Assembly (NCBI GenBank): GCA_016841725.1
Contig: JAENYP010000006.1
Coordinates: 124,001-188,000, forward strand
Direction of reading: 5' to 3'
Origin: Thermincola carboxydiphila
Lineage (GTDB): Bacteria; Bacillota; Thermincolia; Thermincolales; UBA2595
DNA length: 64,000 nt
Shown: positions 7,265 to 13,913 of the stretch, piece by piece
Layout of the letters: the number at the start of each line of letters is the position of its first letter
Position numbering within the stretch: the stretch's first letter is position 1
Program-made: the position numbers and the translations under genes
The notes under the pieces: generated by a model
Database searches by the model: none
Seen by the model: only the letters and a program-made list of their open reading frames with translations
Told to the model about the DNA's origin: nothing

Positions 7265-10200
7265 GTCGCACCCCCTGCGGGTGCGTGGATTGAAACTCCA
7301 GAGTGTTACCAAGATTATCTTTTAACACTGGTCGCACCCCCTGCGGGTGCGTGGATTGAAACCTGTGGATTGCTGATAAACCCGGCCTCAATGAGGGTCG
7401 CACCCCCTGCGGGTGCGTGGATTGAAACAAAACTACTGGCTGAGCTAACTGAAAAACGGTTCGTCGCACCCCCTGCGGGTGCGTGGATTGAAACATTATC
7501 ACCTTGCAGCCAAAAGCGACCAGAAAGGTCGCACCCCCTGCGGGTGCGTGGATTGAAACCTCTTGGGGATTGCTAATAAAGCCGGCTTCAATCAAGTCGC
7601 ACCCCCTGCGGGTGCGTGGATTGAAACAGTGTCTGAATAATTGGCTGCCACTGTAAGTATCCCGTCGCACCCCCTGCGGGTGCGTGGATTGAAACATCAT
7701 AGGCAGAATCGAGCCTGTATATGGGATCAGTCGCACCCCCTGCGGGTGCGTGGATTGAAACATTAATCTTATAAGAGGAAGTTTCTTTATCGTAAGTCGC
7801 ACCCCCTGCGGGTGCGTGGATTGAAACTCCTGCAGTTTGGCAACAATGTTTTTGATTACTGGGTCGCACCCCCTGCGGGTGCGTGGATTGAAACCGTCAG
7901 AAGTCGAAGCGTTTGTGGAGGCATGGGTTGTCGCACCCCCTGCGGGTGCGTGGATTGAAACCTTCAGGGCGGTTTCGTCAACCGCACCTTCTTTGGTGTC
8001 GCACCCCCTGCGGGTGCGTGGATTGAAACCAGTGCGTTGCACGTCTCTACAAAATCCATCCTGGGTCGCACCCCCTGCGGGTGCGTGGATTGAAACGATG
8101 ACAGAAGCTAAAACCAATAAGGGCGAACGACGTCGCACCCCCTGCGGGTGCGTGGATTGAAACCGTCCGATAGGATCATTTTCCTCTGCTGTTACCGGGT
8201 CGCACCCCCTGCGGGTGCGTGGATTGAAACTGGTGGGCAGCTGATGTTTATGCCCTCCTCAAACGTCGCACCCCCTGCGGGTGCGTGGATTGAAACCAGC
8301 GTTAGCGCTTCGGCAATATCTCTCATTATCAAGTCGCACCCCCTGCGGGTGCGTGGATTGAAACACCAGATATCTGGAAGCCCTGGAGGGCAAGGATAGT
8401 CGCACCCCCTGCGGGTGCGTGGATTGAAACCATGGCATTACTCCTCGTACCAAATAATAAACTCGTCGCACCCCCTGCGGGTGCGTGGATTGAAACCTTT
8501 GGCGATACTGTAGTAAAAACCGGCGCCACGTCGCACCCCCTGCGGGTGCGTGGATTGAAACATCTTTAAGCCCTGGAGGGATAAGCACCTTTAGCGTCGC
8601 ACCCCCTGCGGGTGCGTGGATTGAAACCGATGGTTTATCAGTTAACGTTGTAGACGAAACCGTCGCACCCCCTGCGGGTGCGTGGATTGAAACCAAGTCG
8701 CCGTCACCCTGGATGGTTACGGATGTTGTCGCACCCCCTGCGGGTGCGTGGATTGAAACTTGAGAAATATCGAACTAAAGCTCTTCGTTAGTGGTCGCAC
8801 CCCCTGCGGGTGCGTGGATTGAAACATCAATGCTGCCTTAATTTGAGCCGATACTGTTGTCGCACCCCCTGCGGGTGCGTGGATTGAAACAGGGCTACAA
8901 TGAGGATACGGAAGGTATCTACCTGTCGCACCCCCTGCGGGTGCGTGGATTGAAACCCCGTCTGCTCCCGTGCCGACGACGTCCCCATAAATGTCGCACC
9001 CCCTGCGGGTGCGTGGATTGAAACCGGGCTGATTTTGGCTTATCTAACCGAGTAAATCGTCGCACCCCCTGCGGGTGCGTGGATTGAAACAAGGTGTTCG
9101 TCTTGGGTGTCGCCAGCAAGGTAAGTCGCACCCCCTGCGGGTGCGTGGATTGAAACGATGTAAACTCAGCCAGGTCCAATATCGGGTAAAGTCGCACCCC
9201 CTGCGGGTGCGTGGATTGAAACGCCTAAAAGCCTGCCTAAATGTATCCTAATCACTCGTCGCACCCCCTGCGGGTGCGTGGATTGAAACCCTAACTTTAG
9301 TCTCATAATAAGACTTCATATCCTCGTCGCACCCCCTGCGGGTGCGTGGATTGAAACCCCAGCTACTACTTGGGCAAATTCCCAAACAAAGTCGCACCCC
9401 CTGCGGGTGCGTGGATTGAAACCGGATGTCATACAGCAGCTCCCCGTCTTTTTTGATGGTCGCACCCCCTGCGGGTGCGTGGATTGAAACGTTGTCAGCA
9501 TCATCGGAACCAATAGGCTGGTTAGTCGCACCCCCTGCGGGTGCGTGGATTGAAACACGCCCTGATTACCCACGGATGAACCCGCTAAAGGGTCGCACCC
9601 CCTGCGGGTGCGTGGATTGAAACCGTCTATAATTTGGCTAATGTTATTTAGTTTTGAGTCGCACCCCCTGCGGGTGCGTGGATTGAAACTTAAGCCCCGC
9701 ATACTGTTTGGCTGTGTGCTTAGGTCGCACCCCCTGCGGGTGCGTGGATTGAAACATCTTTGCTGTTACCGTTTGTGTAAGTTCTGGGTCGCACCCCCTG
9801 CGGGTGCGTGGATTGAAACAGGAGGTAAAGCATTTATTGAGCTCCGGCGCGGTGTCGCACCCCCTGCGGGTGCGTGGATTGAAACTTGTAAATACTGGAT
9901 TGCGTTTTTTACGTCCGCACGTCGCACCCCCTGCGGGTGCGTGGATTGAAACCCATAAAACTACAATATCATGATGGCGAATATTGTCGCACCCCCTGCG
10001 GGTGCGTGGATTGAAACCATACTTGAAAAACTTGAAAAAGCAGGTGCGGACGTCGCACCCCCTGCGGGTGCGTGGATTGAAACTATCCTTGTCATGTGGC
10101 AGGGTTTGGGAAGGGGATGTCGCACCCCCTGCGGGTGCGTGGATTGAAACAATACCTCTCAGAGCCTCCAAATTGCCCTGTAGGTCGCACCCCCTGCGGG

Positions 10201-13200: not shown

Positions 13201-13913
13201 GCCGCTGTTCAAGACGACCGTCGCACCCCCTGCGGGTGCGTGGATTGAAACAACCAAAGCATATCAGAACAGACGCAAACGGCAAAAGTCGCACCCCCTG
13301 CGGGTGCGTGGATTGAAACTGGAAATAATCAGGCCGATTGATGTTTTTTCTCTAGTCGCACCCCCTGCGGGTGCGTGGATTGAAACTAATGGTGGATACC
13401 CCAAAATGGCCAGCTTTTGATGTCGCACCCCCTGCGGGTGCGTGGATTGAAACTGATACCAATAGCAGACAAATAACCAAAACAACTGGTCGCACCCCCT
13501 GCGGGTGCGTGGATTGAAACTTGATATAGCAGATACTATGATAACATTCTACAAGTCGCACCCCCTGCGGGTGCGTGGATTGAAACTTATTGTATGTGCC
13601 AGTCTTAGGGTTTTTGCCAAGTCGCACCCCCTGCGGGTGCGTGGATTGAAACTATCCACTCAATCCTACCCAGGTCGCGTTTCTACGTCGCACCCCCTGC
13701 GGGTGCGTGGATTGAAACTCATAGAGGCCGGGTTTATATCGAATCCCCAGGTCGCACCCCCTGCGGGTGCGTGGATTGAAACTTCCTGGCACAGCCCAAC
13801 ATAGAAGTGAAGCAGGTCGCACCCCCTGCGGGTGCGTGGATTGAAACACCCCCAAAATTTAACACTATAAGGAGGAATTACGTCGCACCCCCTGCGGGTG
13901 CGTGGATTGAAAC

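Follow-up and report, generated by a model that had tools for sequence, protein, structure and literature searches.

The window, a 64,000-nt stretch of the 3.88-Mb host genome, carries a type I-C CRISPR-Cas locus in which the genes follow the order cas3-cas5c-cas8c-cas7-cas4-cas1c-cas2 and are succeeded by a leader and an array. The cas operon occupies positions 1–7085 on the plus strand, and its members were recognised by NCBIfam models above cut-off (Cas3 core, Cas5c, Cas8c/Csd1, Cas7/Csd2, Cas4, Cas1c, and Cas2). The N-terminal part of cas3 lies upstream of the window, where its frame runs for a further 164 codons. The other plus-strand genes are cas5c (1715–2365), cas8c (2373–4211), cas7 (4213–5079), cas4 (5076–5756), cas1 (5753–6784), and cas2 (6795–7085).

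Between cas2 and the first repeat lies a leader with 72% A+T (7086–7264, plus strand). The array itself (7265–17443, plus strand) comprises 154 repeats (GTCGCACCCCCTGCGGGTGCGTGGATTGAAAC) and 153 spacers, 150 of them distinct. The hallmarks of type I-C are thus present, namely a repeat of ~32 nt ending in ATTGAAAC, spacers of ~32–37 nt, and a leader adjoining cas2. Two repeats at the trailing end, at about 17345 and 17412, have decayed. This decay at the far end, together with the position of cas2 and the leader, places the newest spacers at the left end of the array, and the ranks given below are counted from the leader.

The trailing end (16303–17443) also contains repeat variants and, at 16832–16884, a 53-nt spacer-like unit with an apparent truncated repeat start. 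A spacer duplicated in this region (CCGGCTTAGTATT...) precedes the same repeat variant in both copies, which looks like internal duplication or recombination. Exact spacer duplicates inside the array were observed as well: 13914–13948 is identical to 14511–14545, and 15240–15275 to 15308–15343.

Three spacers with a shared peptide

Two spacers near the leader and one far from it encode a common peptide. Read on the minus strand, the spacer at 7363–7396 (rank 2) encodes LIEAGFISNPQ (C CTC ATT GAG GCC GGG TTT ATC AGC AAT CCA CAG) and that at 7560–7595 (rank 5) encodes LIEAGFISNPQE (TTG ATT GAA GCC GGC TTT ATT AGC AAT CCC CAA GAG). On the plus strand, the spacer at 13719–13750 (rank 98) encodes (L)IEAGFISNPQ (TC ATA GAG GCC GGG TTT ATA TCG AAT CCC CAG). 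Re-translation therefore bore out the coordinates, strands, and translations given in the preliminary description of this locus, as well as its claim that three synonymous variants had been captured on both strands, two on the minus and one on the plus.

The further claim that all three encode the same peptide holds for IEAGFISNPQ, but the Leu of spacer 13719 is not wholly within the spacer. This spacer itself reads xTC followed by IEAGFISNPQ; the Leu codon begins one base earlier, with the C that ends the repeat, and this C would be the same as that of a TTC PAM. A CTC Leu codon with its first base outside the spacer is plausible, because in type I-C arrays with a TTC PAM the last repeat base (C) often equals the PAM base (PMC8482600).

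Within the 33 bases of the motif there are 11 variable columns, and all 11 are synonymous, including an AGC/TCG serine switch. The three pairs share only 26, 27, and 23 of these bases, and for this reason clustering by nucleotide identity would overlook the triad, as had been stated in the preliminary description. At the peptide level we compared all distinct I-C spacers with each other in six frames and took the best ungapped score of each pair. Among the 11,026 pairs, those of the triad score 55, 51, and 51, the next pair scores 37, and the best pair of a shuffled control reaches 31. The peptide match within the triad is therefore not a product of chance.

Phage lysins as the likely source

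The translated triad corresponds to the C-terminal Glu motif of Amidase_3 (PF01520), and the motif Glu aligns with the Glu of 4RN7 and of CwlV (1JWQ). A catalytic Glu is known from relatives, namely Glu199 of CwlD (PMC8496864) and Glu145 of the prophage protein AmiP (PMC9929850), and the Glu of the motif is presumed to be the catalytic residue of the family. The initial assignment of the peptide to the catalytic-Glu motif of Amidase_3 is thus upheld by both the alignments and the published role of this residue.

The host genome encodes four Amidase_3 proteins, and their motifs are VEIGFISNPAE, VESAFLSNAED, TENLFIDTKED, and IETGFITNEHD. None of the four genes carries IEAGFISNPQ, which occurs in the host genome nowhere except in the three spacers. 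Self-targeting by the triad was accordingly rejected, and the question raised earlier of whether host amidase genes also match is answered in the negative. When the second half of the array was compared with the host genome, the only match outside the array was the type II array.

Among 84,980 GTDB genomes, IEAGFISNPQ was found 17 times. Sixteen of these matches are on contigs of gammaproteobacterial type and, where they were read, in AmiB-like genes. The remaining one (L006) is a lysin in a Thermincola ferriacetica MAG and is the sole phage-borne IEAGFISNPQ gene found among these genomes. Its gene (L006:2437–3885, 1.45 kb) belongs to G005:C27, a 49.6-kb contig of a same-family genome that is very probably this MAG; the contig is one which we identify as a prophage or phage of siphovirus-like type because it bears portal, tape-measure, and tail genes and a weak terminase match. 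A BhlA holin gene and tail genes stand immediately upstream of the lysin gene, whose product matches the Amidase_3 Pfam model (E=1.6e-35) and a PHROG endolysin. This lysin fuses an N-terminal Cu_amine_oxidN1 domain, Amidase_3, and NAGPA (phosphodiester glycosidase), a combination that looks uncommon for a lysin.

The best alignments to the G005 lysin gene are 30/32 for spacer 13719, 27/34 for 7363, and 26/36 for 7560. A neighbouring minus-strand spacer, 7495–7527 (rank 4, encoding FLVAFGCKVI), aligns at 29/33 bases, with a TTC PAM, to the part of this gene that encodes NAGPA. Other spacers match elsewhere on the contig: 7962–7997 (rank 11, minus strand) in another gene at the peptide level (TKEGAVDETALK / TKEGAIDEEALK), 12265–12297 (rank 76, plus strand) at 30/33 with a TTC PAM in a 176-aa ORF among the structural genes, and 16702–16734 (rank 143, plus strand) at 27/33 with a TTC PAM in a PAPS-reductase-domain gene. 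An independent BLAST search recovered the same three spacer matches, those of 13719, 7495, and 12265. Additionally, an array spacer of the same-genus genome G002 matches the lysin gene at 33/35 bases, about 110 bases beyond the motif.

The minus-strand spacer at 13981–14014 (EGFISDTQTSI) was considered as a fourth lysin spacer. It is motif-like, but it does not rise above chance and has no IMG/VR match, and we rejected it.

No exact protospacer of any triad spacer was found in IMG/VR, the GTDB genomes, or INPHARED, and the exact or synonymous motif was not found in IMG/VR. The relaxed pattern IE[AG]GFI[ST]NP yielded, in IMG/VR, two phage lysins with a related motif and two other matches. The lysins of the IMG/VR phages L033 and L034 are ~45% identical to the G005 lysin and carry the motif IIEAGFITNPGEE. 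In INPHARED, no match was obtained with nine spacers and then with ranks 8–34, which form part of the array, and tblastn of the prophage lysin gave only about 25–34% identity.

The triad might have no connection with lysins, either because the peptides coincide by chance or because host or other bacterial amidase genes were captured. The same peptide does exist in gammaproteobacterial AmiB-like genes, and by nucleotide spacers 7363 and 7560 are equally near these AmiB genes (7–8 mismatches), so that we assign these two to lysins, provisionally, by peptide alone. However, the pair scores are far above those of shuffled spacers, the host amidases differ, and the prophage lysin has the motif and is matched both by 13719 and, in the same gene, by the neighbouring spacer 7495. 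We regard a non-lysin origin as very improbable, and phage lysins as the supported source of the triad.

PAM positions and silent variation

A TTC trinucleotide, the PAM of type I-C in a published survey (PMC8482600), lies directly 5′ of the protospacers of 7495, 12265, and 16702. At the lysin motif, the PAM positions of the minus-strand triad spacers coincide with the two Glu codons after NPQ, where GAA gives TTC and GAG gives CTC. For the plus-strand spacer, the final two bases of the codon before Leu, together with the initial base of the Leu codon itself, form the PAM. The likely PAM bases sit at wobble positions (GAA/GAG for Glu, ATT/ATA for Ile).

In L033 and L034 the Glu codons are GAA GAA, so the sites at which the two minus-strand spacers would have their PAMs read TTC. 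The G005 lysin reads GAG GAG and ATA CTC at the motif, and it contains no protospacer next to TTC that covers 20 or more bases of the motif. We infer, rather than observe, the TTC PAMs of the three triad spacers, because in this best relative the corresponding positions read CTC, CTC, and TAC.

Against the G005 lysin, spacers 13719, 7363, and 7560 show 2, 7, and 10 differing bases, with the amino acids of the motif unchanged. Comparison of these sequences suggests that silent changes can remove both the PAM and the protospacer match at the motif; the same point about silent evasion was made in 2009 for a viral lysin (PMC2612747). The preliminary description had expected escape mutations at these residues to be costly. 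This expectation fails, since G005 keeps the exact peptide while lacking all three TTC PAMs and having up to 10/36 bases changed.

The same comparison bears on selective retention, according to which many sites were sampled and the spacers at the catalytic motif persisted longer since phage escape is hard there. An invariant motif that was captured three times fits this explanation. On the other hand, silent escape is available, as the same protein in G005 without the three TTC PAMs and with 2–10 mismatches indicates, and two of the three triad spacers are among the newest, which leaves little time for retention to act. We consider it improbable that retention produced the triad.

Repeated capture and its precedents

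We think it likely that the triad goes back to three independent I-C acquisitions from synonymously diverged lysin genes of related phages infecting Thermincola-like hosts. The source phages were probably three in number, related and silently diverged. An ordinary type I-C system would take each spacer separately from the lysin genes, each from a TTC-flanked protospacer and from a different phage. The same codons would be captured because the motif is fixed in the protein and its flanks readily give TTC PAMs: on the minus strand through two GAA Glu codons after NPQ, and on the plus strand where a Leu codon with C as its first base follows an Ile/Val codon whose last bases are TT. Part of the coincidence would be ascertainment, because at few places other than the motif can homologous captures still be recognised as such. 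The observed pattern would then arise from repeated attack by related phages in combination with the supply of PAMs and the visibility that a fixed motif provides, and the phages would escape by silent changes in PAM or protospacer.

Seven I-C spacers match G005:C27 at the peptide level, and four of the seven fall inside the 1.45-kb lysin gene (P about 8e-5 if spacers are uniform over 36.5 kb). Three of the five newest of the 153 spacers target this gene (P about 7e-5); recurrence P values of this kind are inflated, because only conserved stretches are recognisable and phages may exchange lysin genes. With a simple model of three overlapping spacers out of seven, P is about 1e-4, and the PAM-limited chance of a three-fold overlap, given four spacers in the lysin gene, is about 0.01; since conserved sites alone can be detected, neither model tests the question cleanly. 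With a PAM-limited chance of only about 1%, acquisition hot spots or selection may contribute to the overlap. It is doubtful that lysin catalytic codons are recurrent acquisition sites in the stronger sense that their invariant residues dictate where the likely PAMs lie on either strand and that separate events, over the array's history and across CRISPR types in related hosts, converge there beyond target abundance.

Primed adaptation is a further possibility, which we hold only tentatively. Here the old spacer 13719 would have mismatched a later silent variant of the lysin, after which 7560, 7495, and 7363 were taken from the same gene and partly from the same site, so that rank 98 possibly primed the newer ranks 5, 4, and 2. 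Both the order and the location of the newest spacers, which lie in the gene matched by this old spacer, fit such a course of events, and overlapping I-C re-acquisition has been described in Legionella, where the older spacer was mismatched in PAM or seed (PMC5071653). Nevertheless, when priming was studied in the Legionella system in the laboratory, new spacers were not enriched around the priming site (PMC5071653). The sources of 7363 and 7560 differ at 7/33 bases, and one primed event from one target does not account for both. Moreover, repeated attack by lysin-sharing phages accounts for the same data.

The preliminary description had called such a repeated capture unusual. The triad is indeed the strongest case in the array, but it is not isolated. 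Read on opposite strands, spacers 16367–16400 and 16568–16603 give KCMIWLQKYL and KREIWLKRYL. Both peptides match one stretch (VRCRIWLQKYL) of a phage tyrosine recombinase at IMG/VR L033:942–977, which makes the two spacers a probable second same-site pair, derived from a phage integrase. When 499 spacers, drawn from nine array segments in related genomes, were included in the comparison, pairs across arrays and CRISPR types appeared. The I-C spacer 15973–16007 agrees at 27/30 aligned bases with a spacer of the host's type II (Cas9) array (G000:C19; L110 about 4229–4270), which suggests that the type I-C and type II systems of this host both drew on one homologous site. Spacer 10151–10183 matches at 29/33 bases a spacer in an array with a different repeat from a same-genus genome (L097:5282–5314, G001:C46), and 7762–7795 shows a 24/26 overlap with a spacer in an unrelated array of a same-genus genome (L137 about 1402, G002:C4). 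Published precedents, discussed below, also weaken the claim (PMC2612747, PMC5071653).

According to a family search, the host type II cas1 (G000:C19:180125–180793) carries an in-frame TAG, and the type II adaptation module of the host may be broken.

Read as three acquisitions from related phages, the triad would record repeated attacks by such phages. Peptide-level spacer comparison recovers recurrent targets that are lost to nucleotide clustering, and it makes spacers assignable to a phage gene without a known exact protospacer. The lysin motif also offers a natural case in which a catalytic motif stays constant while the DNA read by CRISPR, including the likely PAM, varies silently, and it argues against costly escape when catalytic residues are targeted.

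Several known systems resemble this one in part. The survey by Vink et al. (2021; PMC8482600) agrees in the TTC PAM and in the repeat-end C that matches the PAM in type I-C; it is a general survey and is not about repeated capture. Davison et al. (2016; PMC5017753) reported that endolysins are targeted across bacteria, among them Amidase_3 (7 of 81 domains with a spacer match). Their matches are nucleotide matches only, and in the part of the study considered here no array is described as having captured one motif more than once.

Two precedents are close. Heidelberg et al. (2009; PMC2612747) described Yellowstone Synechococcus spacers in a viral lysozyme/lysin and proposed that silent or conservative viral variants may evade CRISPR. 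In both cases spacers lie in a phage lysin and silent variation keeps the protein, but there the variants were found in a virome and set against one spacer, whereas here three spacers stand in one array on both strands, and the enzyme there was the lysozyme-related DUF847 rather than Amidase_3. In Legionella pneumophila, Rao et al. (2016; PMC5071653) found old and new type I-C spacers overlapping the same region of LME-1 and proposed priming. The type I-C system and the overlapping re-acquisition are common to both cases, but a single mobile element was the target there, while the sites studied here are homologous in protein and 70–82% identical in motif DNA. The triad is thus a new example with close precedents in the silent lysin evasion described in 2009 and the overlapping I-C re-acquisition described in 2016.
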